DNA from: Tridacna crocea
Taxonomy: Eukaryota > Mollusca > Bivalvia > Cardiida > Cardiidae
Direction: 5' to 3'
Length of the DNA stretch: 64,000 nt
Assembly: GCA_943736015.1 (NCBI GenBank)
Contig: OX031065.1
Span: 36,346,427-36,410,426 of the forward strand
Shown piece by piece: positions 15,546 to 39,790 of the stretch. The notes under the pieces are model-generated. The model was not told the DNA's origin and ran no database searches. It worked only from the letters and a program-made list of their open reading frames with translations. Both the position numbers and the translations under genes were made by a program. Every line of letters begins with the position of its first letter. Position 1 is the stretch's first letter.

Positions 15546-15776
15546 TTACGCTTTACCAGACCATCCTAACTTTTTTCGCGACCGAAAGAAAGAGAGTCTT
15601 TTGAAAACATCTTGGGAAAAGGAGAAAATGCTGGAACCAGCATTTTCTCCTTTTCCCAAGATGTTTTCCACACTTTCAAAATCAAATCGTATATTTTGAG
15701 CCCGTTTGATTTGTCGTCTGCGACTGTCTTCAAATTTGGGCGAGTATTAACTGCTTTTCGTCCAGTAAAGAGTTAA
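15546..15776 (-). mobile_element. Family A hairpin MITE with matched arm changes
   Basis: Ends TTAC-GCTTTACCAG and CCAGTAAAGAG-TTAA; hairpin about 15601-15667. Both arms carry the same change relative to the family: AACATCTTGGG pairs with CCCAAGATGTT instead of AACATTGTGGG with CCCACAATGTT. The apex is shortened to GCTGGAACCAGC. Confidence 0.9.
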
Positions 15777-16011
15777 GGATATGAATATTGACTTGATGGT
15801 GTGTACGGAATTATTTTCTACCAGACGACAATTGAATTCTCCCGCTTTGACAAATGACCCATTTATACATTAAAGAAAGGGCTGCCAATAGCAAACGGCT
15901 TGGCTTTGTCTTGAATGGAGTTCTAGCGTTAGATGTCTATTATCATAGAAAAAAGTCCCAGGAACTAAGTGATTAGATTCATTCATGTGTTTTGTAATTG
16001 GTTTTATGATC

Positions 16012-16249
16012 CTAACTCTTAACCAAACGACAAAATATTTAGACTGGTCCAAATTGAAAGCATTTGCAGACGACAATATGAAATGTAACTCAAAAATTTA
16101 TTTTTTTTTTTTTACGAAGGGAAGAAAATATTTTGGGAAAAGGAGAAAATGCTGGTTACCAGCATTTTCTCCTTTTCCCACAACGTTTTCAAAATGTTTT
16201 TTTTTTTCACAGAGTTGTTAAAAGTCTGGATTATGTGGTAAAGGGTTAA
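16012..16249 (+). mobile_element. Family A hairpin MITE
   Basis: CTAA-CTCTTAACCAAACGAC to TATGTGGTAAAGGG-TTAA; hairpin 16124-16190, apex GGTTACC; T-rich slippage tracts on both sides (about 16100 and 16197). Confidence 0.9.
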
Positions 16250-16409
16250 ATAAAATATCTACATAGCTAATTGTTTGAATTTATCCCCCGAATGAAAATA
16301 TTTCTTAAATACATTTGTTGTGTAGGTCCTAGATTGATAAATATATGAATAATGACCGGCGCTGGAAAACTATTTTTTTTTTTCATGTACCTTGTTTTGG
16401 ATCATTTAA

Positions 16410-16636
16410 TCAACCCTTTATCACACATTCCCGAGTTTAACGACCTTTATCGAAAGGTTTTTCGTTTTTCAAAATATTGTGGGAGCTAAGAAAATGCTGT
16501 TTTTCAGCATTTTGTCCTTTTCCAACAATGTTTCTACCTTTCGAAAGACAAATTTTACTATTTGAATCATTTTTTATTTTAATGTCTGAAAATGCTTTCG
16601 ATTTACATGTAGACTAGTCAGTCTAAAGTCTTACTA
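16410..16636 (-). mobile_element. Family A MITE, eroded
   Basis: Left end TCAA-CCCTTTATCACACATTC. The hairpin at about 16467-16535 has a simplified apex ATGCTGTTTTTCAGCAT. The right end is worn and abuts LINE-derived sequence. Confidence 0.7.
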
Positions 16637-16964
16637 TGATTCTCGTTTGAAAACGAGTAAAATAGAAGAGTGGTTTTGGAATTGGACCGTACTCGCAAGT
16701 TATGAAAATGTCATATTATGTGACCTCATCGACAAAGCGAATGTACCCCGCTTTAATTCATTGTTTCATTTTCTTCTGGTTTGCCCGTTTTACGAAGAAT
16801 TAAGAGAAATTTACATTAAAATATATTTTCACAAAAAACCGAACGTGTTTAAATTAGTAGAACTTTTTAACTCTACAAACATTAGAATCCTTAATGGAAT
16901 TGGTATATTCTACAAAAAAGTTAACATAAAAAGAAAAAGTGAAGGAAATAATGTTGGGAATTAA
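16632..16964 (+). pseudogene. LINE reverse-transcriptase C-terminal remnant
   Basis: An open frame ending at 16964 encodes a C-terminal region typical of non-LTR retrotransposon ORF2 in invertebrates: HFLLVCPFYEELR from 16765, preceded by a cysteine region (VILCDLIDKANV) and followed by KPNVFKLVELFNSTN and a basic tail. In intact elements a C-x-x-C and an EDE.HF context lie here; one cysteine and the acidic residues are missing. No RT catalytic core is present, since the 5' part is absent, as expected of a 5'-truncated LINE. No methionine start is claimed. Confidence 0.7.
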
Positions 16965-17718
16965 AACACATTTCCCACAGTAACACTATTTCCGCATTTT
17001 AGTTTAATTTTGATTTTTTTTTTTTTCAACCACTTTTTGTTGTTGATATATTTTATATTGTTGTTATATTTCAATACGCATTGTCAAGAAAAACTATGTT
17101 TGTAACGATGAACCGTATGTGTTCAATTTTAAATGATAACATCGTCATTTTCGCCATTAGTGGGCGAAATATTACTTTTATCCTCATCATCAGAAACTTA
17201 TTAAGTTTCAATGAAAATTTGGTGGTACATGTACGGCCTTACCGGCCTAGAATCGTGTATTTCTTCGTCTTAAATATCGCTCATTTCACTATCTTAAACA
17301 AGGTCCATATTGAAACAAACGCTCCTATGACGTCACAGATCAAGGTGAGCTACAATAAGTAAGGGAGGTAAGCGATGCAAGAAAAACAAATAAGCAAAAA
17401 TATGAATTGAAAAAAAGTACTTTTACTAATTTTTTTTTTCAAATTACAACATCACCAGGTTGCCATTTGATAGATGTAGATTTGAAAATTAATCATATCA
17501 GAAACTTGCTGATTTGCCCTTTAAACATATTCTTTAGATATCGATAAGTTCGTCGTTTCATTTTGCTCATAACAATTAAAATCAGCCTATAAAATACTGT
17601 ACGAATAATATGAGATTAAGATAATGTTTAGTTTATAATCACTAAAGTTAAATATTTTCCCTGCGGGGATTTTTTTTATTGTTCAGTGATTTAAAAAAAA
17701 TTAAGCTGTTCTCCTGCC
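16965..17718. other. Possible LINE 3' flank; otherwise unrecognised
   Basis: T-rich tracts and short frames. A 93-codon frame at 17081-17362 has no recognisable motif. No element ends seen. Confidence 0.35.
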
Positions 17719-17946
17719 TATCTCTCTACCAAACGACAATACTTTAGACTGGTTCAAATTGAAAGCATATGCAGACGACAAAATTAAAGTGACTGAAAAT
17801 TTGAAATTTTTTTTGTGAAGGGTAGAAAACATCGTGGGAAAAGGAGAAAATGCTGGTTACCAGCATTTTCTCCTTTTCCCACAATGTTTTCTAAAGGCTT
17901 CTTTCTCAGGGGCGTCAAAAGCAGGGATTGTGTGGTAATGAGTTAT
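17719..17946 (+). mobile_element. Family A hairpin MITE
   Basis: CTCTCTACCAAACGAC to GTGTGGTAATGAG-TTAT; near-perfect hairpin 17825-17891; apex GGTTACC. Confidence 0.9.
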
Positions 17947-17989
17947 TCTGTATGTTGATTATAAAACCCTTTGGCTTCAAAACGCGACC

Positions 17990-18178
17990 CAATATATATA
18001 GGCTTTTGCTGCCTGTGAAGATCAAGATCAGACGGCACAGAACTGCAATCTGATCTTCATCTACACAGTCCGATATGGAGATACTTTTCCTCGATTAATA
18101 ACTCTGAAATTGCAATATTTATTTTTTTACTGGAAGCGCGAAAGTTTCATTTTAGTTATTCAGCAGGTTAGGGGTGGA
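17990..18178 (-). mobile_element. Family C copy, left end eroded
   Basis: The hairpin at about 18016-18071 (GATCAAGATCAGACGGCACAG...TGCAATCTGATCTTCATCTAC) is followed by CCGATATGGAGATAC and TTCAGCAGGTTAGGGG. Confidence 0.65.
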
Positions 18179-18296
18179 TAAGCTTGTTTTTTTTATTTCA
18201 CGAAGAACAGAATTAATTCTGGAACACAAAAGCAAGATGTAATGAATTATTCAGATATCGAAAACTTTGTATGGAAAATTCACGATAAGACCCAAA

Positions 18297-18542
18297 TTAA
18301 CCCCCATTACCTCTCACATACAAATCTTTACGTCCAGCATACAATCGCTTTTGAAAACATTGAAGGGAAAAAGAAACAATTGCTTGGTACAAGCAATTGT
18401 TTCTTTTTTCCCTCAATGTTTTCTGCGTCAATAAAAACTGGTATTTTTTTTTCCTATAATTTTCTATTTTTGAATGACTCTGTACATTTGTATATGAAGT
18501 TTCTGGATGATTCAAGAACTCTTCCGCACAGTGATGGGTTAT
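18297..18542 (-). mobile_element. Family A variant with a different inner stem
   Basis: TTAA-CCCCCATTACC to AGTGATGGG-TTAT. The hairpin at 18353-18423 keeps the outer GAAAACATTG / CAATGTTTTC stem, but the inner stem is GGGAAAAAGAAACAATTGC with its exact complement and apex TTGGTACAA. It is an intermediate between the A and B designs, with both arms changed together. Confidence 0.9.
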
Positions 18543-18817
18543 TGAGGCTTAGGTTCCAATTATTATTTTTGCGATATTCAATCGGATTGGGAACCATGGC
18601 TGAATAGGATTACGCACAAGACAAATCCTCCGGCTGAATTTTTCATGTTCATTATCGGTAATACATTGTGGGATTGAAATTTTTAACCCATTACTGAACA
18701 TAGGCTACGTAGGTTTTAATCGGACTTGTAACAAGTTTTCCAGGGAACATACAGAGGATAATCAACTGGTTATTTTTTATATGAAAAATATCTCACGAGG
18801 ATGCGTTGTTTGGCGTT

Positions 18818-18854
18818 GAAAAAACGAGTGCGAAGCACGAGTTTTTTTTTTTTT
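18818..18854. repeat. Small hairpin
   Basis: AAAAAACGAGTGCGAAGCAC followed by GAGTTTTTTTT: a short stem-loop with tetraloop-like centre GTGCGAAGCAC. Confidence 0.7.
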
Positions 18855-18906
18855 AACGCCTTACGACGAATCCGAGTTACGACGAATCCTATTTTTATCT
18901 GAAAGG

Positions 18907-19075
18907 TCGCGACCTTTTTCTATTTTTATCAAAGATGAAATGGTACGATTTGATACGGTGCAATTAGAGCTAGCTGCATCCAATGAAAATGCGTATCGAG
19001 GGAATGTCGAAATCAAGCTCGATCCGCCAAGGGTAGAGTAGCGTAGTGGATCGTCACCCTTGGCTTGCGAAGATG
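18907..19075 (+). mobile_element. Family D, right end only
   Basis: Starts inside D at CGACCTTTTTCTATTTTTAT and runs to the GCTTGCGAAGATG terminus; left part absent. Confidence 0.85.
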
Positions 19076-19214
19076 CATTTGAATATGGGTCACTCTCGAT
19101 GGCAAAAGACTATCGTTCGCTGGCTTAAAAGTCTTTCTGCATAAGTGTATTACACTTAGAGCCTTCAAAAGAGGTCCAGTTCGTATTGTTGGCGCTGACA
19201 GAGTTGAAGGTTTT

Positions 19215-19443
19215 AAAACCCATTACCACACAATCCCTACTTTTGACGCCCCTGAGAAAGAAGCCTTTTGAAAACTCTGTGGGAAAAGAAGAAAATGCTG
19301 GTAACCAGCATTTTCTCCTTTTCCCACAGTGTTTTCTACCCTTACCAGAACAAATTTCTATTTTTGAGTAACCTTTATTTTGTCGTCTGCAAATGCTTAC
19401 AATTTGGACCAGTCTAAAATTTTCTCGTGTGGTAAAAAGTTAA
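19215..19443 (-). mobile_element. Family A hairpin MITE joined to family C
   Basis: CCCATTACCACACAATCCC to GTGTGGTAAAAAG-TTAA; hairpin 19270-19336. Its last TTAA (19440-19443) is also the first TTAA of the adjacent C element. Confidence 0.9.
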
Positions 19444-19641
19444 AACCCTTGCGCTACTAAATAAATTAAATTAAAATGTCCACTCAATAGTGAAAACAAA
19501 AAAATATTACGATTTTAATGTTGATTACACCGAAAAGAAAATACCATATCGGACAGTGTAGATCACAGATCAGACTGCACGTTTTGTGCAGTCTGATCTT
19601 GATCTACACTGTCTGCAAAAGTGTCCGTTAGCAGCCTAAGG
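19440..19641 (+). mobile_element. Family C hairpin MITE sharing TTAA with A
   Basis: TTAA-AACCCTTGCGCTACTAA; hairpin 19550-19615, apex ACTGCACGTTTTGTGCAGT; right arm CCGTTAGCAGCCTAAGG. The right TTAA is mutated away. Confidence 0.82.
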
Positions 19642-20035
19642 TAGGAAGGGAAAAAGTCAATATGAAAGCTATCATTAACTGAACCCAAATATTTGAGTTC
19701 CCAAGACATGGCGTGCTGTTTCCAGAAAACCATGAGCATCATTAGTTAATTTAGGAAAATTAATCATCCTTGTATAATTGATTCGGTTATATCGGCCCCC
19801 TACGTCTGTTTATATAAGATGGTTCGTCAAACAGAAAGGCAGACGTCATATGTAATAATAGAGGAATTTAACAAATTAACTTACAGACATTTTTTCGAAG
19901 TAGCTGAATTCGCTGGCTTTTGACCTACTTTTTGACACTGATATCAAATGAATGAATACAAATTTGTGATTAGTCAAAAATGAAAAACGAACAAAAGCTC
20001 ATGGCAAACTACCTTTCGGATAAACAGGGCTGCCG
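19642..20035. other. No recognised feature
   Basis: AT-rich; no repeat family ends. Confidence 0.4.
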
Positions 20036-20043
20036 CGGCTACC

Positions 20044-20444
20044 CATCTTCGCGGGCCAAGGTTACGATCACTACGTGGATCTTACCTTGACTGATTGGGC
20101 CCGATTTCGAGATTCCTGCGATGCGCCCTCTATTGGATGCTGGTTATCACCCCCCTTTACATTATATTTTTAAAGCAAATGAAATACCGTTTTACAAACC
20201 GCTTACGAATACACATGAAGCGATAAGCAGACATCCACGTGGGTTTCCATGTTTACCTTCTGTTCGAAAGGTAGCAACCTTGTTCTATTTTTATCAAAAA
20301 TGAAATGCTACGAGTGATTTCATTCGTTGCAGTTAGAGCTGGCTGCATCAAATGAAGAAGGGAATCGGGGTAATGTAAAAATCAAGCTTGATCCGCCAAG
20401 GGTAGAGTAGCGTAGTTAATCGTCAGCCTTGGCTTGCGAAGATG
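20044..20444 (+). mobile_element. Family D Mutator-like MITE
   Basis: 401 bp, CATCTTCGCGGGCCAAGG to GCTTGCGAAGATG. Flanks CGGCTACC (20036-20043) and CGGCTGCC (20445-20452) are an imperfect duplication. An internal frame is a fortuitous reading of the element and recurs in its other copies. Confidence 0.9.
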
Positions 20445-20519
20445 CGGCTGCCAGGAACATGGCGTAAACGTAGGGCTACCAAAGTCACAAATAACCTATG
20501 ATTTTACACTCCTCCCACC

Positions 20520-20660
20520 ACCTACATCACCCCTTTCATCAAAAAAGAAAAGAAATTTATGAAGAAGGCTTGTGTTGCTGGTCTAACAATTTCAATAATA
20601 AAAAAAATTGAGAAAATGTAAAAGGTGCTCCAATCTCTGGTTGACTTAACTGAACTTTCT
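20520..20660. repeat. Dispersed repeat shared with 58235-58407
   Basis: TTCAATAATAAAAAAAATTG and TCTCTGGTTGACTTAACTGA align with the 58.3 kb copy. The 58.3 kb copy has a perfect palindrome here (ACCAGAGGTTGGATTCCAAC), which is reduced to one arm in this copy. Confidence 0.55.
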
Positions 20661-20773
20661 TGGTATTTTTTTTTCCTTTTTAAATATTGTTGCCAAAGTA
20701 ACAAGAGTCCCCACTGAGTTTGTTTTGTGTTTTTGTTGTTGCAACATGTGGTTCACGTGACACTGTTTTAATA

Positions 20774-20979
20774 CATTAAACAGAGTTCCAGATAAGAGGG
20801 AGTGATCGTACTCTAAATCCATTATTTCTCTTTCAAACTCTATGTTGTGGGTACTCATTAGAATCGTCTCAATGAGACAATTCTAATGAGTACCCATAAC
20901 ATAGGCTTTAATTGAGAATAATTTATATTTTCAATTTTGAAATCTAAATCACTCCCTCTATCTGGAACTCTGATTAAAT
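20774..20979. repeat. 206-bp imperfect palindrome
   Basis: Outer arms CAGAGTTCCAGATAAGAGGG / CCCTCTATCTGGAACTCTG, inner arms GGGTACTCATTAGAATCGTC / GACAATTCTAATGAGTACCC, apex AATGAGAC. No flanking duplication recognised; probably a foldback transposon. Confidence 0.85.
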
Positions 20980-21834
20980 GTATAGTTTCGTAAAGTATAG
21001 CGATTAATCAACCGTCTTTTGAAGCTGCACTGTAATTTATACGATAGAGCACAAGAATGATGCTGTTTTTAAAGGTACTTTTTGTCTCATTTATGACTGA
21101 TAATGCACTTATACACATATAAGCACTGGCGCCGTTGATGAAATAGGGCTCCTATACGTACAGTAGTTCAACCCAATTATACAGAAGAGTATAGCGTCGG
21201 TCAGTTTGATTTGAAATATGGTTTGAAATTTGATGCAAAAAAATGTAGTCAATATGAAATACTTTAGGTGTTTTCATGATTTCCCTTAGTTAATTAGCAT
21301 GAAGGGAAACCACGTTAATTTCGCTTCCTGTCATTCAACAAACAGCCGACAAAACCTTTGATTTCAATTTACTGCTAATCTAGAGGGAAAAATACGCACT
21401 CTTTTATCAACGAAACTGCCAGGATATTTTTTATTTTCGCAGCAGAAATTCAAATTAAAATTTCCCAAATTCCAAGCTGAAAATAATAGTGAATAGTTCC
21501 TGTATTTTCTTTGGCACTTTCATTGGTGTAATAAAGCAACTAGAATACTTACACAGCCTTCTGATCAACAGGAGGTGTATAGTAATTAAACGACATAGCT
21601 CATCGATAGTTAAAATGAATACATCAAAATCTCGTTTTTTCGAAGAAGCCATTGCTCAAGAAAGTTCCTAAATTCCAAATAGTAAAGGAGTGCTGGCTCC
21701 TCAAACGAGCAATCAGATATTTTGTCGCATTATCTAGTATTTGGAGCCTTCCAGGGCAGTTCAGTTTGTATACTTTGCACTGAAAATGACCTATTTGGTA
21801 AATTTCGTCCGTAGTAGTCCAGTTATTACTCGGG
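20980..21834. other. No recognised feature
   Basis: About 850 bp with overlapping 60- and 65-codon frames on opposite strands at 21455-21671; no motif in either. Confidence 0.4.
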
Positions 21835-22000
21835 ATATTAGAAAATCAAAGCGTTGAGAACGCTGAAGTGATAATTGTCAAGGAAGCCGTTGTGTGGCAT
21901 TAGTAATTTGAAAGACTGAGAAACATTATTCAAATTAAGTCTGAAATGTCTCTGGCCGTTAAAATTCAATTCCCAACTTTACAATTAATTATTTATTTCG
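21835..22000. repeat. Dispersed repeat shared with 59265-59620
   Basis: AATCAAAGCGTTGAGAACGC, TGTCAAGGAAGCC and TTTGAAAGACTGAGAAA recur at 59.27 kb. The 59 kb copy has an extra ~200 bp before the shared TTCAATTCCCAACTTTACAA. Confidence 0.6.
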
Positions 22001-22954
22001 ACCTATAGATTTCCATGTCCAATCAAATGGAGTAGCTCGCAATCATGGAATGAAAAGTCATAGGACGAACTGGTTCTGGAACGAAAAGGCCCAGAACCAA
22101 GCGATCGCTAGACAAATTATGTATCATTGCGCCAAGGGAGGCTATGAACGAGTGAAGCTATTTTCAAAAAAAAAAAAGTATTTCCACGATCGCCAGTGTA
22201 TTTTTACATGCCACTGCTAATAACATATCTGAGTGCTACCGAAAAAAACTATTTGCCAATGAAAAAAATAGCTTAATTGGGTTTATTTCCTTCGGCTTTG
22301 CATAAAATACAATACATGGTCTTCAAAATTCAGTATTGAACACCTAGTGGTATTGTCTTCGACAAACACCATAAAAAGTATTTCGAGTTTACCGTACCCA
22401 GACCTAAGTTCTTCACGGCAATTATAGCGACGGGATTCATTTCTTTTTTACTTTTTGCTGGTTTTTATTTCGTAGAAAAGCCACCAAGCAGTTTACAATT
22501 TAGTTTTATGTAGAGCTGTCGAAAAGTTGAAACTTCGTTCACTGGCCTGTACGTGAGAGAGAAAGACAATACTGTTGTGTAACAAATAGCAATATGGAAT
22601 TGATAACCACACTATCACAAACTCCTTGGAATGGCGGTCTCTTCCTTGAAATTGATTAATTCTTCATTATTCATGAATTCTCTTTTTCAGAAAAATACAT
22701 CAAGTCACGAGACAAACTGATTAATGAATACCGAAGTTTCTTATTTAAAATTTAACTTGCCTCTGTTAAAGTATAAATGTTTACGCCCTGTCACCTTTGT
22801 AAATAGTCTCAGAAAAGGAACAACCACATTTAATATAGTTATCAGTATGTTCAAATTATAGATAGCTCACCATGTGTAGACTACAACATAAAAGAATGCG
22901 AAACTTTGTGGCAGTTACTACCATATACTTACTCATACATGTCTCTTTCACATC
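22001..22954. other. No recognised feature
   Basis: Nearly 1 kb of unique-looking AT-rich DNA; no hairpin element, coding signature or tandem repeat found. Confidence 0.4.
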
Positions 22955-22971
22955 TAAAAAGATAAGTCATG

Positions 22972-23160
22972 CCCTGTGACAAGGGGGTTTAATCCATCTG
23001 AAGGCTCACATGAGTTGCTATTTGTAAATTAAGATTATTCTACCTCATGATTCAGATTGATGTTGGAAAAACTGAATTTCACGGATCCACAATCATGTGA
23101 TGACTAGGTAGGTATCATGCATCATAAAGATGCTGTAAACTCCATATTGTCAGCAAACTG
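22972..23160 (+). mobile_element. Family G fragment
   Basis: Left end AGTCATGCCCTGTGACAAGG and internal CTACCTCATGATTCAG, GGATCCACAATCATGTGATG and TATCATGCATCATAAAGATG. The AGCCTGCGCAG core hairpin is missing. Confidence 0.65.
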
Positions 23161-23164
23161 CTCA

Positions 23165-23394
23165 TTAACCCTTTACCCCATAAGGGATTTCTATGGTATC
23201 TCTAACTGACCCTAAATAACAGCAAGGATGAAGCAATTTCTTATGTGTATATGACACCTTTTGATAGCATAGAAAACATTGTGACTAAAAAGGTGAAATT
23301 GCTCGTCACGAGCAATTTCACCTTTTGCCACAATGTTTTCCAAAGGCTCTTACAAGCAATGCGTAGAAATGAGTACCTGTGAAGTAAAGGGTTA
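23165..23394 (+). mobile_element. Family B hairpin MITE, intact
   Basis: TTAA-CCCTTTACCCCATAAGG to AAGTAAAGGG-TTAA with both TTAA perfect; hairpin 23272-23340, apex GCTCGTCACGAGC. Confidence 0.93.
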
Positions 23395-23455
23395 ATGAAT
23401 TACACTTTTTCAACGGCTATAATAACGAGTAGTGCCTCTGCAAGCTGGAGAGACA

Positions 23456-23768
23456 AAATGAATGAATGATGAATGAATGAATTTGCGTATATTTAGCGTC
23501 GCCACCGGTTTCCCATATGGGCAACACCCCCTAAAGTCTGTTAGAATTGTTACGTACGGGGGATAGTGTAGATACGGGACAAAATCCATCCTAAGTTTCT
23601 CCTGGCTTTTTTACGTGCTCGTTGTATAGCACCGTCACACGGGACCTCGGTATAACGTCTCATCCGAAAGACTATTAGTAATGTTAGATGGCCAGCCGTG
23701 GGGATCGAACCCATACCCTCATGATCACGAGTTTTACGCTCTACCAACTGAGCTATGCGGGCTGGTCA
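23456..23768 (-). mobile_element. Complete tRNA-derived SINE with AATG tail
   Basis: Minus-strand copy: the tRNA head at about 23690-23768 has an A box TAGCTCAGTTGGTAGAGCG and a B box GGTTCGATCCC; the body contains GTGTTGCCCATATGGG; the tail is (ATTC)n, seen as GAATGAATG at 23457-23482. Flanked by AGAGACA (23449-23455 and 23769-23775, allowing for the start). Uninterrupted counterpart of the copy at 14115. Confidence 0.88.
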
Positions 23769-23802
23769 AGAGACAGTTCAGTCATCTTTCAAAATAAAAC
23801 GG

Positions 23803-23872
23803 CAGATAGCGTAGATCAGAGGTTTTTGTGCCTTTTGTGCAGGCTGATCCTAATCTAAAGTGTCTACAATAA
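23803..23872. repeat. Eroded family C hairpin
   Basis: GCGTAGATCAGAGG...TGTGCAGGCTGATCCTAATC...AGTGTCTAC: arms only partly complementary. Confidence 0.4.
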
Positions 23873-24469: not shown

Positions 24470-24548
24470 AATCCATCTGATGAACAAGACAGTCGAATAA
24501 ACACCATTCAACCTCGATTAATTTAGCACATATATTTTGGTCAACAAT

Positions 24549-24756
24549 TTAACTCTTTGTCTGCTAGGTGCGATTCATTGACCTTTTGCGGACAGTGTAG
24601 ATCCAAGATCAGACTGCACAGAATGTGCAGTCTGATCTTGGTTCTACACTCTCCGGTAAGAAGATATTATTCCCCAAAACATAATTTTGAAATGGCAACA
24701 TTCGGGTTTTTGCCATCAAAAATTTCATTTTAATGATTTAGCAGGACGGGGGTTTA
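24549..24756 (-). mobile_element. Family C hairpin MITE
   Basis: TTAA-CTCTTTGTCTGCTAGG, hairpin about 24590-24657 (ACTGCACAGAATGTGCAGT apex), then CCGGTAAGAAGATATTATTC and GATTTAGCAGGACGGGGG-TTTA. Nearly full length, about 208 bp. Confidence 0.82.
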
Positions 24757-24977: not shown

Positions 24978-25423
24978 TTGAAAAGCTCGTTCTACTGATA
25001 AGCCATACACTCAATATCCGCTTCCAGGTATGATTATCGACTGTACGGCTACACAGGATGATAAATGAACATTAGGTTTGAAATAAAACACACTGCGTTA
25101 TCATGGGAGATATTAAATACATCAGAAACATTTTGGGATGATCTTTACAAAGCTTCCTTAATGCTTTTATCCAATTATTAAACACTGGCGATTTTTTTAC
25201 GCCTCTGCAGTAAATATATGTATCTCTTGAAATAACTGCAAGGATTCAGTAATTGCTTGCACCTTCTTTCGAAATGTTTCCAATACTAAATTCACATTTT
25301 TGAGTTCAAATTACTTTATTTAGCTCAGATCTAAGGATTACAAGATATATGAGGATTTCCAACAATTTAAATAATAATTTAGTGTGAAAATAGTAGGGGA
25401 GTCTGAATATGCAAACAATATAG
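24978..25423. other. No recognised feature
   Basis: AT-rich, no repeats recognised. Confidence 0.4.
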
Positions 25424-25502
25424 CATCGGTGTACTTCCAAAACCTCGTAACTACAGCTTGTAACAAGCTGTAGTTACGAGGTTTTGGAAGTACACCGACG
25501 AT
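25424..25502. repeat. Family I palindrome, copy 2 (near perfect)
   Basis: Arms TCGGTGTACTTCCAAAACC / GGTTTTGGAAGTACACCGA meet at ACAGCTTGTAACAAGCTGT. The most regular of the three copies. Confidence 0.92.
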
Positions 25503-26800
25503 AGATTTCTACCAATACCATTTGTAGGATAATTATATTCAATACGTCAAAAATATTTTGGGTTTTACTTCACAGGGCTTCCTGATCAATCGCAATTAAT
25601 AAACCACGCATAAAAAAAAAACTGAATGTGCGAACTGTTTGTCAACTGAAATATGGTAAGATTTCCATAGAAAATTGAGACTCAAGTTTTCTTTTTCATG
25701 AGAAGCCTTGCAATTTTCAGAATGGTAAATCGGCGTATTTCCGGCGATGAAATGTGCCGTGTAGGTATATATCAAGCTACAAGATACAGCTGAGGGATCT
25801 GATGGCTCCCATCACCCGAGTAATGCCGAATGTGGCTTTAGTTGGATAATAGTCATTCATCTAATTGACTGTTTATTTCCGTTTCCTGTTTTATCGAACC
25901 TGCAGTGATAAGATGGATGAAAATTTTTTTATTGACACGAATCTGCAATTGTGAAAGGTAGATATTGTCTTTTACAAAAATTTACAAGGGTTCGACTAGG
26001 AAAGTATCTCTTCGACATCATATACACCTCGTTGCAGAGGGAAATTATTTCTTTGCTGTGGTTTTGCAGGGGTCAGAGGTGGAAATAATCTGTTTGACAT
26101 GAGTTCATTCATTGTTCTACATCGTCATTTCTATACTTGAACTCCAATCAATTATAAAGTTACGATTTTATTACATAAGCCTACATTATTATCGTTAATG
26201 CGGAGGTGCACGTTTAGGGTTTGCGTTACTGTTATTTAAATACGACATTCCGCATCAACTGTTCACGGCAAATTCCGTATATGATCGTCGTGGTCGATAA
26301 AAGAGATTTAGACAAAAAGAGACAAGTGATTGTTAGGTAGACCTTCCAAAACACAGTGATTGAAACTCAACAAGGGATTCTGTTGTAGTTATCCGTCGAC
26401 AAAAAATCGAGCAAACCGGGCATTCGTGTATCTCTTGTACGATGTTTTGATACACTGGGAAAGAGATAAGGAGCGGATAGACGTGCGTTTTGGCGGCCTT
26501 TATCAGTCTCGTGCCAGAGGTTACATTTTTACCTGGAATTGATTTTGACATGTGTTCTACAGGTTCTAAAAATACCCTTTATTGGCTTAAACGGGATCTA
26601 TCTGGGTAAAAAATACTCTGGGTGCTGGTAAAATGCTGGCATGATAGAGCAATGAAGCACCTATCAACTGTTCGGAGGGTTTTTAGGTAAGCAAGATATT
26701 TCCGTAGTCAAAGCAACACTCAATTAAATTTTAATTCCAGATTTTAAGATAAACCTTCCGAATGATTTAGACAGAACTTCCCATCTGTCACAGTGTAATC
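25503..26800. other. No recognised feature (1.3 kb)
   Basis: Longest stretch here free of hairpin families. Overlapping 72- and 60-codon frames at 26333-26551 share the same DNA on opposite strands and have no known motif. Confidence 0.4.
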
Positions 26801-27155: not shown

Positions 27156-27164
27156 AAAGGCCAC

Positions 27165-31107: not shown

Positions 31108-31212
31108 TAAGTTAGTAAGTTATTCAATGGAACATAATCTTCATCCGCGTTTTTACACTATGGATGAACTTGTTTTCTTTTCATAAAGAATGGGTCATAT
31201 TAGAATCGAAAT

Positions 31213-31373: not shown

Positions 31374-31384
31374 CTTTCTACATT

Positions 31385-31694
31385 AAATTGCACGTTCTGT
31401 GCAGTCAGATCTTGACCCACGCCGTCAGCAAAGGCAACTTGTGTCTGCCATGGCTATCATTGTCCTCGGCCTTATCCTACTAATGAAACGAAATAAAAAA
31501 TAACAATAAATGAAACGAAACTTTCTAGCCGATGGCACAAAACCGAATAACGTTAGTTCAATGTTTTAGAGAAAATCATCTTATCATCGAACAGTGTAGA
31601 TCAAAGATCAGACTTCGCGTTCCGTGCAGTCTGATCTTTGATCTACACTGTCCGCAAAAGGTCAGTAAGTCGCGCTCATTTGCCTAAGGGTTAA
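31385..31694 (+). mobile_element. Family C half-copy followed by a full copy
   Basis: 31385-31465 carries a C right half (GCACGTTCTGTGCAGTCAGATC). A full copy starts at about 31469 (TTATCCTACTAATG); hairpin 31588-31653; ends GCCTAAGGG-TTAA (31691-31694). Both hairpin arms have an extra A/T: ATCAAAGATCAG pairs with CTGATCTTTGAT, where other copies have ATCAAGATCAG/CTGATCTTGAT. Confidence 0.82.
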
Positions 31695-32106
31695 AGAAGG
31701 CGGGAAAAGCTAATCGGATACACGGTAATAACTTTGGAATTGAACAGATCTGTCCAGGATTAACTATACGATCCGTGGATAATACACGACACATCCGTGC
31801 TAAATTGAAACTATCGACCAGGAAAATATTATAACATTACCCAACGAGGTAGGACAGCTAAAACTCGATCAACTGCCATACAATTAGCTTAGAGATCTGA
31901 AATAATTTGTTTGGTTGGTTTGTTTGTTTGTTTGTTTGAACGATGTCTAAGGCACACCAATCGGTATTTATGACATGTCTATCATTCCTAGGTTTAACGT
32001 GACTAGGCTTGGCCCTGTAGTGCTTTGCCGAAGGACACTCTCACATGATCAGAGCAAGGGGATGATAGTTTCTGGATTTCTTGGTTACAGATCTATTTCC
32101 TTTACT
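31695..32106. other. Mostly unrecognised; (TTTG)n tract
   Basis: TTTG repeats at about 31918-31938 and a SINE-like GCCGAAGGACACTCTCACATG near 32028, too short to classify. Confidence 0.4.
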
Positions 32107-32661
32107 ATTAAGGTGGGTATTTAGATTTTTCACATCTCATCAAATTAAAAAAAAATATGTATATCACTGAAATTTATATGACAAAAACAATACAAATCAC
32201 CAATAATTAAGAATCATAAAATTTCAAAACAAAAAAATAAATGATGGTGTTCCATAAAAGGGCTACGAAGCCTCTTGAGCTATTTTTAGATTTCGCCCCA
32301 GAAATAAAAAAAAAATATTGTGGGAATGTCCAGTAAGTAGCACGTGACTAATGGTGCTGAAATTCCATAACATAACAAACAGGTAGTTATTTTACATAAT
32401 GTTTTCTTCGAACGCTATGTTTGAAGCTTTGTCTGTGTATTTCCGGTTTGTAAATGAGCGAGTTGCTCATGTAATAATAGACTGTGTTTCCCGTCGATGT
32501 CGACCTGAGCCGTAATAAATTTCTAATTTCTCTTGTTGTTGGATGGTTTTAGGCTACTAGAGTTAAATGAATGAAAATTAAAAGGCTTTGGGATTATAAC
32601 GATGATTTTTTTTTGTATTTTTATAAAATTATCGCCCTAAGATCAAAAGGGCCACCTTGAA
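32107..32661 (+). mobile_element. Family K element, copy 2
   Basis: TTAAGGTGGGTATTTAGATT to AAAAGGGCCACCTTGAA. Shares GCTACGAAGCCTCTTGAGC and AGCACGTGACTAATGGTGC with copy 1 at matching positions. Confidence 0.85.
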
Positions 32662-32696
32662 AGGGCCATGCTTATATATTTTTAGAAAGGAGCTCT

Positions 32697-32815
32697 ATCC
32701 GTAGGCTGCTAAGCATGTCTCACACACCTTTTGCAGACAGTGTAGATCAAGATCAGATTGCACCGAACGCGCAGTCTGATCTTGGATCTACATATCGGAT
32801 AAGGAATTTGGCATA
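32697..32815 (-). mobile_element. Family C, left part
   Basis: GTAGGCTGCTAAGCATG end, then CACCTTTTGCAGACAGTG and the hairpin to CGGATAAGG. The apex GATTGCACCGAACGCGCAGTC has diverged; the distal half is missing. Confidence 0.7.
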
Positions 32816-33324
32816 AAACACCTTTTTATGTACTTGAAAAAAAAACTGTATTTTTTTAATTACGGGGCCTATCCTTCTTAAAAAGGCAGAAAATAAATAA
32901 TGTGGTACTCATAGCAATTTTACACGTAGCAGACGATTATTCATTCCAGGAAAAAGTAGCGGAAGGATTCCATCAGAGACGTAATTACATTTAAAACTAA
33001 CGGAAAGGAATACTTAAGAGAGCTGAACTTTACTCGGAGACATTTAAATGATAGATCAGGTCACAAAATGATTGACGAGTACGTCAATAGAGGGCAGACT
33101 TAAACCTTTGGTCTGGTTGATACAACTTCCGGTTCCTGTACGGACAGTGTAAACAAAGATAAGTCTTTACAGAAGATGTATATATTCTGATCTGATCTAC
33201 AAAGCTCGATTTGTTGTTGAATTTAAAAAAAAAACAATCAACCTTGAAAATGTAATATTTTGAACTTTCATTTCTAACTGACGCCGTCTGTACCATTCAT
33301 TTCATCCAGTAAGCTTGAAATTCC
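32816..33324. other. Unrecognised apart from a C-like hairpin relic
   Basis: 33138-33201 (GGACAGTGTAAACAAAGATA...CTGATCTGATCTAC) is a worn C hairpin. The rest is AT-rich unique sequence. Confidence 0.4.
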
Positions 33325-33541
33325 TTGGCAAACACTACCATGTTTTTATAACCCTCAGGATTAACCTCGCTTGAAAACATTATGGGAAAAGAAGAAAATG
33401 CTGGTAACCAGCATTTTCTTCTTTTCCCACAACGTTTTCATCTTCATCAAGGAACGTCAGTCCATTTGGACCAATCTGTCGTCCGCTAATACTTTCGAAA
33501 TTCGAAAAGAGTTTTAAATTTGTGGTTTAGAGAAGGGTTAA
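33325..33541 (-). mobile_element. Family A hairpin MITE
   Basis: Hairpin 33373-33439, with GAAGAAAATG in one arm matched by CATTTTCTTC in the other (family: GGAGAAAATG / CATTTTCTCC). The right end AGAAGGG-TTAA is kept; the left end is worn (about TTGGCAAACAC). Confidence 0.82.
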
Positions 33542-33701
33542 CGAGATAGGGAAATGAGCTCGACTATTGAGCCGGGAAAAGGTTACAGGGTTACAGGCTA
33601 AATAGGGAAAGCAAAGATTCTGAATAGAATTGTTTTTCGGTGCCCTTTCATATTGCTTGGAAACTTTGACTTACACACATGAATAAAGAGCACTGTTTAT
33701 T

Positions 33702-35042
33702 TTTAGCTCAAATGAGCACAACGTGCTCAAGGGGAGCTTTTAGGATCACTGGATGTCCGTCGTCCGTCGTGCGTCGTCAACAATTCTTTAAACATCAACT
33801 CCTCCTAAACCGCTGGGCCAATTTGGACCAAACTTGGCTGGAATGTTCCTTGGGAGGTCCTCTTTAAAAACTGTTCACAGAATTTGATTCCGTCAAAAAC
33901 TCTGGTTGCCATGACAACCAAATGGAATTTTCTAGGAAATTCTTTAAAAATCTTCTCCTCTGAAACCGCTGGTCAGATTTTAAAATAATTCCACAGAGAT
34001 GTTCCTTGGGTGACTCTTTTCAAAAAACTGTTCGTGAAATTTTGATCCGTCAAGAAACATGGCTCTGGTGAATGGGGGCTTCTTGCACTATACAGAAATA
34101 AAGGAATTCTAAAAAATTCTTCTTCTCTGAAACGGCTGGTCAGATTTTGAAATAATTTCACAGAGATGTTCCTTGGGTGACCATTTTCAAAATTTGTTCG
34201 CGAAATTTTGATCCGTCAAGAATCATGGCTCTGGTGAATGGGGGCTACTTGCACTATACAGAAATGAAGAAATTCTTTAAAATTCTTCTTCTCTGAAACC
34301 GCTGATCAGAATTTGAAATCATTTCAGAGATGTTCCTTGGATGACCCTTTTAAAAAATTGTTCGTGAAATTTTGATCCGTCAAGAATCATGGCTCTGGTG
34401 AATGGGGGCTACTTGCACTGTACAGAAATGAAGAAATTCTTTAAAATTCTTCTTCTCTGAAACCGCTGGTCAGAATTTGAAATAATGTCACAGAGATGTT
34501 CCTTGGATGACCCTTATCAAAAATTGTTCACGAAATTTTGATCCGTCAAAAAATGTGGCTCTGGTGAATGGGGGCTACTTGCACTATAGGGAAATGAAGA
34601 AATTCTTAAAAACTCTTCTTCTCCGAAACCGCTGGTCAGACTTTGAAATTATTTCACAGAAATGTTCCTTGGGTGACCCTTTTCAAAAGGTGTTCATGAA
34701 AGTTTGATTCGTCAATAAACATGGCTCTGGTGAATGGGGGCTACTTGCACTATATGGCCATGAAGGAATTTTTTTAAAATTCTTCTCTGAAACTGCAGAT
34801 CAGGTTCTGAAATAATTTCACAGAGATATATCTTAGTTGACCCTTTTCAAAAATTGCTCGAAATATTTTGATCCATCAAGAAACATGGCTCTGATGGCTG
34901 TGGGCTATTTACACTATACAGACATGAAGAAATTCTTAAAAATTCTTCTTCTCTGAAATGGCTGTTTAGATTTTGAAAAAATTGGCCATGGTCCTCTCAA
35001 AAACTCTGGTGAGAGAACCAGGGCCATCTTGGCCCTCTTGTT
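33702..35042 (+). mobile_element. 165-bp-satellite element (pearl/Helentron-like), 5' and 3' hairpins
   Basis: Starts TTAGCTCAAATGAGCACAAC with an inverted repeat (GAGCACAACGTGCTC nested in AGCTC...GAGCTT), then GTCCGTCGTCCGTCGTGCGT, then tandem monomers, and ends with the hairpin AGGGCCATCTTGGCCCTC followed by TTGTTT. This layout is widespread in bivalves and matches Helentron-associated satellite carriers; assignment by design, not by a rolling-circle protein. Non-coding. Confidence 0.7.
33804..34985 (+). repeat. ~165-bp tandem satellite, about eight monomers
   Basis: TGAAACCGCTGGTCAG (or variant) recurs at 33804, 33961, 34128, 34293, 34458, 34624, 34788 and 34953, with steps of 157, 167, 165, 165, 166, 164 and 165 bp. 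Conserved blocks include AGAGATGTTCCTTGGGTGAC and ATGGCTCTGGTGAATGGGGG. Confidence 0.93.
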
Positions 35043-35279
35043 TTTTTTTTCTTGTTTTTTTTTTTTCAGGACGATATAGGATTAAAAAAAAAAATTATGC
35101 AGTTGTGAACCTGAAAATTGCTCGAAATTTCTATACATGCATCGCAACTAAAAGTCACAAACTTGACGTTACAAAGATCATTTAAACGCTTTTTGAAGAA
35201 TTTTTAGAAAAAAAAGCTTTTAACGGGAATAGTATATATCTTATTAAAAGTACCTACCTATGGAGGCAGCCATATTGTT

Positions 35280-35480
35280 TACTCGACTCGACTCGACTTC
35301 ACTCGACTGCAAGTAATTTCGTAACTAGGTCATTTCGTACCTATATAGGCAATTTCGTACAATTTTCTGTCTTTCCGTATCCACCTATTGTTTATATTTT
35401 GGTCATTTTGTACTCAATTCGATCAGTTTGTAACCGCTTTGGTCAATTTATATCCAGTTTTTAATATCAATTTGGTAATT
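35280..35480. repeat. TCGAC repeats and degenerate ~22-bp repeats
   Basis: ACTCGACTCGACTCGACTTC at 35280, then loosely repeated units of the type GGTCATTTCGTACC / GGCAATTTCGTAC / GGTCATTTTGTACTC to about 35470. Confidence 0.65.
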
Positions 35481-35884
35481 TGGAACCTATTTTTAATACT
35501 ATTTTCTTGAGTTGTTTCTCGAATGACAACTACTTTTGTACATAGCTCCAAATGAAAATTTGTTAAAATTTCGCCGAAGAACGGCTATGATTATGCCTTA
35601 CCATTATTGGTTCTTTTTTTTTTAAGTTTCAGTTTGCAGTCCAAGAACTGTTTAGGACTTCTTAGTTAATTTCTCACCTAGTTGTGCATAAATTTACTTT
35701 GCTTAATTTGAAATGCAGTAATATGACTTATTTCAGAAACAACTGATTTGCGGCGCCATTGATGTTATGCATCAATATTTTCTTGTTGTGTATATTGGTT
35801 GCTTTCGAGCAAATAGTGTTGGTATGGTCAAGGTGAAACGTAGTTCATAAATACCAACTTGAAAGATAACAGCTTTTAGGCGCT
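35481..35884. other. No recognised feature
   Basis: AT-rich; nothing supportable. Confidence 0.4.
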
Positions 35885-36115
35885 TGCCAAACCGTACCGA
35901 ATTTAAATATTTAGAAAGAGTGCATTTGAAAATTTATGGAAAAAAAAAAAGGAAAATGCTGGTAAACTGCGTTTTTTTCGTTTCTTATAATATTTTATAC
36001 CCCTTACAGACAAATGCTATCATCGAAGGTCGAAGGAAAAATTTTGAATCGTTGTCTGCCATGATTTTAAATTGGAAAGGTCTAAAATTTTGTCGCTATG
36101 GTAAAAAAAATGAAG
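35885..36115 (-). mobile_element. Family A relic
   Basis: GCTTGCCAAACCGTACCG at the left, AAATGCTGGTAAACTGCGTT at the eroded hairpin (about 35930-35996), and GTCTAAAATTTTGTCGCTAT at the right. Confidence 0.6.
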
Positions 36116-36375
36116 AGACGAATTTAATTCCGTCTGCCAACTGCCAAAAAAAGCGAGAACAAAACATATTTTGGGACTTCCCTGTCGATCAATTTTGAAA
36201 ATTATATGGAGCAGATGGCTTTGAGTGTCGTCTGCATTAGAAAAGCGCAAAAAAATCAATATGGTGGAACGCTGCGCCTTGGTTTCGATTACAGAATCAA
36301 AAGTTGTGAAAACAGATCAGCTGTCATAGGAGTAATTTGAATATCGGGCGACACTATCCCTTCTCTCGGTTACTC

Positions 36376-36454
36376 CATTATCTCCCGCTAGATGGCATTC
36401 TACAAATACTCAAATACTTCGAATCTTCGAAGAATATGACATGCGCAGACAACG
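36376..36454 (-). mobile_element. Family F 79-bp mini-derivative, perfect 10-bp TSD
   Basis: Only the two ends remain (CATTATCTCCCGCTAG and CATGCGCAGACAACG), with about 265 bp of interior lost, yet it is flanked by perfect TCGGTTACTC at 36366-36375 and 36455-36464. The interior junction is near TACTTCGAATCTTCG. Confidence 0.93.
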
Positions 36455-36671
36455 TCGGTTACTCTAAATGCCAAAACCATGTTTGACTCACATCATATAT
36501 TGATTGATTGACTGATTGTTGATTGATATTAAATGCTGTTTAAACACTATTCAAGTTATATCACGGCGGCCTATTGTGAAGTGCAACTGCCTGGTCGCCC
36601 ATTCAAGCACTAACCTAACGCACGTTGCTCAACTATCACAGAGAAAAATACACCAAACCGCATCACTGTAA

Positions 36672-37072
36672 CATCTTCGCGAGCCAAGGTTACGATCACT
36701 ACGTGGATCTTACCTTGGCTGATTGAGCCCGATTTCGAGATTCCTGCGATGCGCCCTCTATTGGATGCTGGTTATTACCCCCTTTACATCATATTTCTAA
36801 AAGCCAATGAAATACCGTTTTACAAACCGCTTACGAATACACATGAAGCGATAAGCAGACATCCACGTGGGTTTCCATGTTTACCTTCTATTCGAAAGGT
36901 AGCGACCTTGTTCTATTTTTATCAAAGATGAAAAGCTACGAGCGATTTCATTCGTTGCAGTTAGAGCTGGCTGCATCCACTGAAAAGGCGTATCGGGGGA
37001 ATGTAAAAATCAAGCTCGATCCGCCAAGGGTAGAGTAGCGTAGTGAATCGTCAGCCATGGCTTGCGAAGATG
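36672..37072 (+). mobile_element. Family D Mutator-like MITE
   Basis: 401 bp, CATCTTCGCGAGCCAAGG to GCTTGCGAAGATG. Flanks CACTGTAA (36664-36671) and CCCTGTAA (37073-37080) match at 7 of 8. Confidence 0.9.
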
Positions 37073-37154
37073 CCCTGTAAAGGCTAACTCAACGGCAATG
37101 AAAGGCTTATATAACTGGCCTGCAACACGTGAAAGGGTCATTGGGGCATTAGCT

Positions 37155-37216
37155 TAAAGTGTCGTCTCGGATCAGCCTGCGCAGTCTGCGCAGGCTAATC
37201 CCAGACGACACTTTAC
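37155..37216. repeat. Hairpin related to family G core
   Basis: AAAGTGTCGTCTCGGATCAG / CTAATCCCAGACGACACTTT round AGCCTGCGCAGTCTGCGCAGGCT; stands alone without G ends. Confidence 0.85.
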
Positions 37217-37444
37217 GACTTCACTAGATTTTGGGATACAGAAGACTTGTGCAAAACAGAGTCGGGCCAGGTTATAGTCGCTAGCCGAAAAAAAAATATA
37301 ATTCAGGCAAAAAATAAACAAAAGACACCGCTACCTGGCAGGTTTTAACCTAGTTTTGAAATTAATTTCTCTTCAGCGACTAAAAGTTGGACCGACCAAA
37401 CTATGACAGGTAAGATTGTGATGTTCACAATAGTCACCTTACTT

Positions 37445-37653
37445 TTAACCCTTTCCCAAACAATCCCTGGTTTTTACGACCCTGAAATAGAAGTATTTTG
37501 AAAACATTATGGTAACCAGCATTTTCTCCTTTTCCCACGATGTTTTCTACCCTGCTAGAAACAAATTTCAGTTTTAAGTTACGGTTATTTTGTCGTCTGC
37601 AAGCGTTTTCAATTTTGACCGGTGTAAAATTTTGTAGTTTGGTAAAGGGTTAA
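37445..37653 (-). mobile_element. Family A with left arm half deleted
   Basis: TTAA-CCCTTTCCCAAACAATC to GTTTGGTAAAGGG-TTAA, both perfect. GAAAACATTATGG is fused to TAACCAGCATTTTCTCC: about 20 bp of the left arm up to the apex has gone. Confidence 0.9.
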
Positions 37654-38097
37654 ATAGTATGATATTAATTTGAATGCATTTTAACAACCGCCTTGTTTAC
37701 TTTTGGGCTTTATTGTCACTTTAAAGAATTTACTTTAATTGCACGTTGCAAAACATTTTTGTTCCCAAGAAACTGACTGCTCTTTTACACAGTTGTTCAG
37801 CACTAGAGAAGAATGAATTCTGTTGCAATGATTATCGTCAATTCTCAGAAAAAAATTGAACGAACTAGGAGTTGACCCCTGGAGCCATTGGTTTCAAGCC
37901 ATCTACGATACCAACACACATATCAACCTGATGATCATGTTAAAGGCCCTTCGTGACTATCATGTATGGAACAACACTGAGAAGTTGACAAAAAATGCCG
38001 AATTTAATTTTTAAATCCAATTATACCAACAAAACCTTGTGCATTCCTGGCATTCTATGCTTAATGATAGACAATTCTTTCCTTTCTTTCAGCTTCA
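37654..38097. other. No recognised feature
   Basis: AT-rich unique sequence. Confidence 0.4.
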
Positions 38098-38101
38098 AAT
38101 A

Positions 38102-38395
38102 CTTATGAGCCTTGCACTGTGAAAAGGGGGCTCACATGCAGCATCTGCAAAAAGTATCGACCCAGGTCAGCCTGTTTGGTCTGCACAGGCTGACCTGCGC
38201 TGAAACATTTTGCTCTTGGTTCCCCTTTATTTTATTTCATTTTTTTTTTGCTTGTCCAAAGACCATTTTACCTCTTGCATTTGTCGGTTGTTACATAAAC
38301 CGGACTTTTTGGATCCATGATCACGTGATGACTGGCTCGGTATAATGCATCACGTAGATGCATTAAGCCCCTTTTTGCCATAGCATGGCCCATAT
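38102..38395 (+). mobile_element. Family G element
   Basis: TTATGAGCCTTGCACTGTG end, core CCCAGGTCAGCCTGTTTGGT...GCACAGGCTGACCTG at about 38161-38205, GGATCCATGATCACGTGATG, and the right end ATGCATTAAGCCCCTTTTTG with CATAGCATGGCCCATA. Confidence 0.8.
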
Positions 38396-38462
38396 AAAGT
38401 CGGCCTCTTTCGACAGCTGAAAAAAAAAATTAACCGCAAAAAAAAAATTAACCGAAACGAGA

Positions 38463-38955
38463 CCATCTTCGCAAGCCAAGGGTTACGATCCACTGCGCTA
38501 CTCTATCCTTGGCGGATTGAGCTTGATTTTGACAATCACCCGATACGCATTTTCATTGGTTGCAGCTAGCTCTAACTGCATCAAATCAAATCGCTCGTAG
38601 AATTTCATATTTGATAAAAATAGAACAGGGTCGCGATAAAAATAGAAGGTAAGAATGAATTGCTCCATGGGTGTGTGCAGGATCTGTAATGATTTATTAC
38701 CGAAGAAAACAGATACGAACAATATTTACATAAAGTTTCAATGTGACCAATCAATTATCAGATGTTTAGGCTATATCCCAGCACCTGACCATGGAATGTC
38801 GAAGTAAGTTTGTGGTTATTGCTTCATGTTGAATTATTGTATTCGTAAGTGGTTTGTTAAACGACATTTCATTGGCTATAAGAAATATGATGTAAAGGGA
38901 GATAATAGCAGCATCCAATAGGGGGCGTGTTGCGGGAATCCCGAAGTAAGAAAAA
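38463..38955 (-). mobile_element. Family D long variant, right end lost
   Basis: Starts CATCTTCGCAAGCCAAGG. After TAAAAATAGAAGGTAAG it carries about 150 bp absent from the 402-bp copies (including ATAAAGTTTCAATGTGACCA at 38728), then rejoins D at GTATTCGTAAGTGGTTTG and ATAAGAAATATGATGTAAAG. The terminus is truncated at about 38955. Confidence 0.78.
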
Positions 38956-39568
38956 GTAAGAACGAAATTTCGACAGCAAAGTGATTCAACCTGAACTTAG
39001 GCTACACATTGTTTTTAAATTTGACTTAAATTGTTTAAAAAAAATGACAGAGTTGAGGATATTCATCTATCTATTGATACAATGCAATTGTGCAGTTTTA
39101 GATGAAAGTACGCCTTGGGGCGTTTACTAGTATCGTAAAACTGTCTTGCGATTACCAATAAAACTTGGACATAAAAATGAACAAGCGAGGAAGAAAAGAC
39201 TGTAAAATACATAATAGAAGCTATCTTAAAACTGTGAAAGTCGTCTGCATCCGAAATAATTTTCGGCAAATCTCACAAACTCTCGTCTAAAGCGAGAACT
39301 CATCAGAATTGGACAATATTGTTTGCGTGAGTACCTAATTCCGAGGGGAAAAAGTAATTTTAGATAAGCAAACACTATACAATAAAAACGTCCTATTTCC
39401 TTCTCCTCCAGAGACAAACGCATAAATATCTTTTCCGGGGACAGTTTGAATTGCTTGATAATGCAGGCCAATTTACGACAAGTCAGATCGCAACACAAGA
39501 AGTCTTAGAGCCAATGAAAACTATGTGTGACTGTCATAGACTTTACTCTTCCCGTCTTTGTGTCCGTT
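38956..39568. other. No recognised feature
   Basis: Weak frames on the minus strand at 39063-39498, no motif recognised. Confidence 0.4.
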
Positions 39569-39790
39569 GCTATACAATCCCGACTTTTAACGAGTCTGAA
39601 GGAGAAGAATTTTATAAAACATTGTTAAGAAGAGGAGAAAATGCTGGTAACCAGCATTTTCTCCTTTTCTTAACAATGTTTTCTACTATTTCTAGTCCAT
39701 TTTCCAACATTTAAGTTACAGTCAATCTTTTCTCCGCGAATGATTCGAAATAGGATAAGTCTACATTTGTGAAAACTGCTTTGGAGTTAA
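39569..39790 (-). mobile_element. Family A hairpin MITE with matched arm changes
   Basis: CTATACAATCCCGAC to CTTTGGAG-TTAA. Hairpin about 39615-39683: ACATTGTTAAGAAGAGGAG pairs with CTCCTTTTCTTAACAATGT, where the family has GTGGGAAAAGG/CCTTTTCCCAC. The same change in both arms keeps the stem. Confidence 0.85.

Follow-up and report, generated by a model that had tools for sequence, protein, structure and literature searches.

Palindromes borne by a short transposable element of the bivalve Tridacna crocea appear to owe their pairing to the copies that move on and not to upkeep in the copies that stay. The element, family A, is a miniature inverted-repeat transposable element (MITE) with copies in a 64,000-nucleotide stretch of the genome (assembly GCA_943736015.1, contig OX031065.1, positions 36,346,427 to 36,410,426 of the forward strand; the window). 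Its hairpin consists of GAAAACATTGTGGGAAAAGGAGAAAATGCTGGT, a single loop base (mostly A), and then the reverse complement, forming a near-perfect palindrome of 67 nt (2 x 33 bp) that lies off-center within the MITE. A preliminary description of the window had noted matched changes in both arms at four sites and proposed either arm-to-arm correction or selection for the fold. The analysis presented here makes it likely that mobile source copies retain the fold, whereas landed copies go on to lose pairing, mostly one arm at a time.

Mirrored hairpins in the window

The matched arm changes are real, but the positions first given for them are element starts, and the hairpins themselves lie further in. 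The first MITE-A copy (15546..15776, +) has diverged flanks (0.73 identity to the consensus) and a right TTAA at 15773-15776. Its hairpin (15603..15668, +) is 66 nt long, with one central base missing, and has perfect 32-bp arms in which CATCTTGGG is mirrored by CCCAAGATG. Pairs 9 and 10 are altered on both sides and the remaining pairs match, as originally reported. Among 92 genome sites bearing the CATCTTGGG arm, this is the only one compensated at both pairs (genome searched, 1.05 Gb in 31 contigs; C1 to C18 are each between 40 and 77 Mb long, the two that follow 55 to 57 kb). The mirrored arms of the MITE-A copy at 39569..39790 (+; right TTAA at 39787-39790) were likewise confirmed. Its hairpin, at about 39615..39683 (+; the 39616 copy), pairs GTTAAGAA with TTCTTAAC, TAA replacing GG in each arm, with one G.T spot.

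The other two sites are less tidy than first described. The copy with diverged flanks at 33325..33541 (+; start taken from the preliminary description, right TTAA at 33538-33541) lies outside the 119 full-length copies of the masked search described below. Its hairpin (33373..33439, +) does show a mirrored G-to-A change at pair 20, but it is not clean, with A.C mismatches at pairs 7 and 10, and the same transition is common elsewhere (13 of 87 listed sites). At 18297..18542 (+) lies a related TTAA element that starts with TTAACCCCCATTACC and whose right end was placed by eye. The inner stem of its hairpin (18353..18423, +), said to be wholly different and perfectly paired, is indeed paired, but it contains one bulge and belongs to a diverged homologue with the same GAAAACATTG outer stem as family A. 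All four hairpins fold far better than shuffled sequence (z-scores of -10.5 to -15.2); these scores, together with the permutation excess reported below, led us to reject pairing by chance alone. Reference copies with a perfect consensus hairpin are found at 12781..12847 (-) and 48185..48251 (+), and a third (44365..44435, -) has perfect 35-bp arms, equal to the consensus hairpin plus two extra pairs.

Resident copies change mostly in one arm

Covariation was assessed in copies retrieved by a hidden Markov model (HMM) of the element with the hairpin masked. This gave 209 matches, of which 119 were full-length; 115 remained distinct after identical and tandem-array copies were dropped, and 113 were used for the permutations and later analyses. 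The model derives from 63 copies that had been selected by their hairpin, so that its flank consensus leans toward copies with an intact hairpin. In addition, loci L001 to L008 were chosen for an intact hairpin core, which slightly biases stem identity upward. Across the 115 copies, 3233 pairs are unchanged, 366 are changed in one arm, 46 are mirrored, and 17 are double but non-complementary. One-armed changes thus outnumber mirrored ones by about eight to one, and the sites singled out initially are striking picks.

Mirrored changes are nevertheless more frequent than permutation predicts. Within-column permutation stratified by stem divergence gives 15.3 expected against 46 seen, a count reached in 0 of 300 permutations. 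Half of the mirrored cases fall at three pairs: 15 represent one variant at pair 8, and 8 lie at pairs 26 and 31. When these pairs are excluded, mirrored changes still number 23 versus 10.1 expected (sd, 3.0; again 0 of 300 permutations), and non-complementary doubles number 16 versus 12.0. Carriers of the pair 26 and pair 31 variants have similar flanks (0.87 and 0.86, respectively, versus 0.70 overall), marking them as subfamilies. Matched changes therefore exceed chance, and many of those outside the three subfamily pairs can be inherited or represent second hits at mutation-prone pairs.

The subfamily markers raise the question of a pure founder effect without selection, in which the source merely happened to be paired and mirrored variants do nothing but label its descendants. 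Pairs 26 and 31 behave in this way, as may the pair 8 T>C variant, although the flanks of its 15 carriers are barely more alike than average (0.743). Such an effect leaves unexplained the mirrored differences between families and the likeness of stems despite flank divergence, and the copies compensated at pair 10 do not cluster by flank (both discussed below); we consider it improbable.

Stems diverge about as fast as the TTAA sites

Stems are more alike than flanks, with identities to the consensus of 0.93 and 0.80 to 0.82, respectively, in the hairpin-masked search. Between copies, the stem-to-flank ratio is 0.5 to 0.6 for close pairs and about 0.4 for distant pairs. The TTAA sites provide a clock, on the premise that TTAA is intact at insertion and that its decay measures the time since. 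In copies with readable termini (105 or 79 of the 113), TTAA divergence equals 0.059 to 0.076 depending on the filter (95% intervals between 0.035 and 0.099). At A/T positions, divergence is 0.048 to 0.049 (0.039 to 0.059) in the stem and about 0.16 in the flanks. Stem decay is thus about the post-insertion rate, perhaps somewhat slower, and this speaks against strong maintenance of the fold in landed copies. The excess divergence of the flanks must be mostly inherited from the source lineages.

Differences between families are mostly mirrored

A sister hairpin, A', is present in the window at 44697..44763 and 55356..55422 (both +). It resides in a different TTAA element, which has the same start of the termini and other internal flanks. 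Compared with family A, the A' arms (14 copies used) show mirrored differences at pairs 14, 21, 26, and 31 and an unmirrored one at pair 13. At this last pair, the left arm carries A in 10 of the 14 copies, opposite C in nine and opposite A in one. A third variant, represented by four copies with alike flanks, differs from A at pairs 8, 26, and 31; the change at pair 31 is mirrored in three of these copies, and those at pairs 8 and 26 in all of them. Taken together, stem differences between families are mirrored at seven of eight pairs (A versus A', four mirrored and one not; A versus the third variant, three), compared to 23 mirrored and 366 one-armed changes within copies (exploratory Fisher P of approximately 5e-8).

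Hairpins that remain alike over diverged flank lineages, in a family with a very large donor pool, could also be homogenized by ectopic gene conversion, with breaks at the palindrome being repaired from other copies. Exchange of this kind would be visible as hairpins swapped between A and A'. No clear chimera was found: 14 A' hairpins lie in A' flanks and 87 A hairpins in A flanks, with none swapped, while the cutoffs used left the flanks of 39 A, 1 A', and 4 unassigned hairpins unclassed. Swapping between A and A' was rejected on these counts. As the TTAA clock also indicates little refreshing after insertion, ectopic conversion is the least probable of the explanations considered here, and we regard it as very improbable.

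Neighboring changes are not corrected together

Arm-to-arm correction in resident copies, in which one arm serves as template for the other during replication template switching or palindrome-primed repair and a mutation thereby becomes a matched pair, makes a specific prediction for adjacent changes. By our own reckoning, which takes mutations to be evenly spread in time, copied tracts of at least 2 bp should leave both pairs compensated about as often as one. Partner letters for the CATCTTGGG, pair 20, and GTAAG lists were tallied by hand and counted a second time, and the listed pair 20 and GTAAG sites all derive from C1 or from C1 to C3. When CATCTTGGG occupies one arm (92 sites), 56 partner arms are unchanged and 9 have changed in a non-compensating manner. 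Pair 10 alone is compensated in 17 (one of which has an additional change) and pair 9 alone in 9 (two of which do). Both pairs are compensated in 1, the window copy at 15603, versus 1.96 expected under independence. GTAAG in one arm gives 566 strand matches. Among the 98 sites listed, 60 partners are unchanged, 29 are compensated at one pair (in two of them the other pair has a change that does not match), 7 show nothing but non-matching changes, and 2 are compensated at both pairs, versus 2.78 expected. Co-correction of neighboring pairs was therefore not found in these two genome-wide doublet tests, with 3 sites compensated at both pairs (4.7 expected) and 55 at one. At pair 20, the 87 listed sites comprise 69 uncompensated, 13 compensated, and 5 otherwise changed partners, which is near the mutation spectrum.

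As a general process, the arm-to-arm correction first proposed is not supported. In addition to the doublet counts, one-armed changes dominate, stems decay at about the TTAA rate, and the A' mismatch at pair 13 was amplified as such. The excess of mirrored changes over permutation speaks for correction, as do two observations discussed in the next section, namely the complex change mirrored in the 39616 copy and an excess of T at the loop. On balance, correction in resident copies appears unlikely.

Compensated and uncompensated copies were compared by their flanks at 38 of 40 loci (2 were without an HMM match). The compensated ones are not one founder group but come from many, mostly diverged, flank lineages, which indicates that more than one source lineage acquired or retained the paired state. 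According to the preliminary description, stem substitutions unpaired as often as chance predicts would reduce the matched cases to subfamily founder effects. This outcome is largely borne out, as the substitutions are mostly unpaired, but the simple founder reading does not account for everything: pair-10-compensated copies lack common flanks, which calls either for numerous source lineages or for compensation that recurs.

The 39616 copy and the loop base leave room for rare template switching

Template switching in hairpins is a described mechanism (PMC8794818, PMC8604942) that predicts mirrored multibase changes and loop inversion. Signs of both are seen here, in contrast to the co-correction of adjacent pairs, which is absent. 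The GTTAAGAA arm occurs at two genome sites, in a single arm on C4 and in both arms in the window, as judged by exact patterns that would miss worn relatives. A genome search with the right flank of the 39616 copy matched nothing but itself (E of at most 0.001), although very common words were skipped and a relative could have been missed. The 39616 copy is a single case of a private multibase change mirrored in both arms, possibly after insertion.

Genome-wide, loop bases other than the consensus A, oriented by the left flank, are T at 3861, G at 1590, and C at 641 sites. T thus makes up 0.63 of the changed loops, versus 0.34 and 0.41 expected from stem and flank changes, respectively, as inversion of the loop would give. 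In the small sample, 13 of 22 changed loops are T (P = 0.07 versus the flank share and 0.015 versus the stem share). However, T loops are found in 1 of 43 copies with consensus-like flanks and in 8 of 70 others, so inheritance may explain T loops as well. Rare template switching across this huge palindrome family, flipping the loop base and occasionally stamping a complex mutation from arm to arm, as at 39616, would fit both the change in that copy and the excess of T loops, and we put it forward as a tentative possibility. If true, the family would make a natural assay of hairpin-templated mutation in an animal. PMC8794818 itself regards the role of template switching in stem maintenance as less clear and the evidence for it as circumstantial.

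Pairing is likely maintained through the copies that transpose

Source-copy inheritance combined with one-armed decay would make a general arm-to-arm repair unnecessary as an explanation of the matched changes. We propose that mobile copies must carry a largely intact palindrome, which could offer a transposase or host factor a symmetric or cruciform site in the DNA, or act as a transcribed hairpin. Copies that are intact or have been recompensated would become sources, and their daughters would inherit the mirrored variants. After insertion, the hairpin would no longer be maintained and pairing would be lost base by base, with chance second hits at mutation-prone G:C pairs contributing extra matched changes. 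The selection on sources, like the function of the palindrome, is an inference. The selection for the fold suggested initially fits in this form, with mirrored differences between families and stems more alike than flanks, but not as selection acting on resident copies, which change mostly one-armed.

Several observations weigh against this model. In copies with the most diverged flanks (identity below 0.75), TTAA divergence reaches 0.10 to 0.13 and that of stem A/T positions only 0.06 to 0.07, and some protection of the stem is possible. The ends of the 39616 copy are not alignable to the model, yet it has only 2 one-armed stem changes; two other such copies have 8 and 9, but L020_5251, another copy with poorly matching ends, has none. 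The seven mirrored pairs out of eight between families are a small count to which pairs 26 and 31 each contribute twice, and the pair 13 mismatch in A' was amplified uncorrected, so perfect pairing is not strictly required. At pair 10, 18 of 25 changed partners are compensated, versus 26% expected from the mutation spectrum, and pairs 9, 12, 13, and 20 lean toward excess compensation (P of 0.07 to 0.25). The flank similarity of pair-10-compensated copies is 0.625 (15 copies) versus 0.733 for uncompensated ones (17 of 56 sites), and that of pair-9-compensated copies is 0.639 (6 copies). Finally, an autonomous partner with the same termini and hairpin was not found among the 8 of 118 transposase loci examined.

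With roughly 190,000 intact palindrome cores, the TTAA clock, and non-compensating doubles as controls, the rate of arm-to-arm copying can be bounded. This rate looks low here, and pairing seems to persist because of which copies go on to transpose. A hairpin common to otherwise different MITE families also points to a candidate function in mobilization.

Family A resembles piggyBac-like MITEs

Based on the flank alignment, the element is approximately 229 bp long and reads TTAA-CCCTTTACCACACAATCCC...GCCTTTT-[hairpin]-TACCCT...GTTTGGTAAAGAG-TTAA, the hairpin being an internal part. Its ends follow CCCTTTACC...GGTAAAG(A/G)G at TTAA target sites. TTAA is found at both ends of the A and A' consensus sequences, and both have short inverted termini beginning with CCC (CCCTTTACCA...TGGTAAAGAG for A and CCCTTTACC...AGTAAAGGG for A'). 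Foldback and other long-inverted-repeat elements likewise contain palindromic DNA, but here the palindrome is internal and the ends are separate short inverted repeats. A scan of the window for open reading frames (ORFs) of at least 150 amino acids found none. As far as sequence features go, family A fits a piggyBac-like MITE, i.e., a nonautonomous DNA transposon with a TTAA target and CCC termini. CCCTT is the most conserved end motif of piggyBac in one survey, according to the pertinent part of PMC10813416. Kolobok elements also target TTAA, but their termini, as given in the corresponding part of PMC9587614, are 5'-RR and YY-3', and a Kolobok identity was rejected on the CCC starts.

The TTAA duplication, CCCTT-type short termini, absence of an ORF, and very high copy number are shared with piggyBac-related MITEs. 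Family A differs from these in its off-center internal palindrome, which is conserved across families whose other internal sequence differs. No printed description of such an internal palindrome in piggyBac-related MITEs was found in the accessible parts of the open-licence literature. Exact matches to the inner 31-mer number 191,599 in the genome, compared to 0 for its reversed control, and an exact search of prokaryote and viral collections gave 0 matches. Some motifs in the flanks resemble molluscan sequence. At a threshold of at least 48 of 66 matching bases, 145 hairpin copies were counted in 268 kb (the window plus L001 to L026). MITE-A copies also occur within tandem arrays at L017 (matches from 747 to 8928) and L019 (865 to 8278), with periods near 1.63 to 1.64 kb and 1.85 kb. 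At 8361..8464 of the window, two MITE right ends apparently stand head to head, probably as elements adjoining at a TTAA.

The genome contains 118 matches to the piggyBac transposase domain (PF13843), some with open frames; this is a lower bound that includes broken copies. Of the eight loci inspected, L072 to L074 are bounded on either side by TTAA and by CCCTTTATATAC termini, whose first 7 bases equal those of the MITE, L069 has CCCATTTATGCC termini, and four are without an end pair. Family A palindromes at these loci fall outside the delimited elements. At L073, a piggyBac element whose transposase frame (868 to 3633) is open lies beside or inside MITE-A pieces (350 to 574, 776 to 867, and 3632 to 3973), apparently as a nested TTAA insertion.

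Other palindromes in the window

Hairpin-bearing repeats seem common in the window. Another palindrome family, with arms of 40 to 51 nt around a single loop base (..CCAAAACCTCGTAACTACAGCTTGT), is present at 1531..1633, 25417..25507, and 54343..54423 and numbers 8 copies across the 268 kb. Several unrelated palindromes, near-perfect and about 60 to 90 nt in length with loops of 1 to 5 nt, lie at 7487..7553, 20826..20918, 24589..24655, 31591..31651, 37155..37215, 42571..42637, 58345..58405, and 61193..61271. An Rfam scan returned a single tRNA match and nothing else. This match (RF00005, 34.1 bits; no ARAGORN call), at 23690..23762 (-), is perhaps a tRNA-derived repeat.

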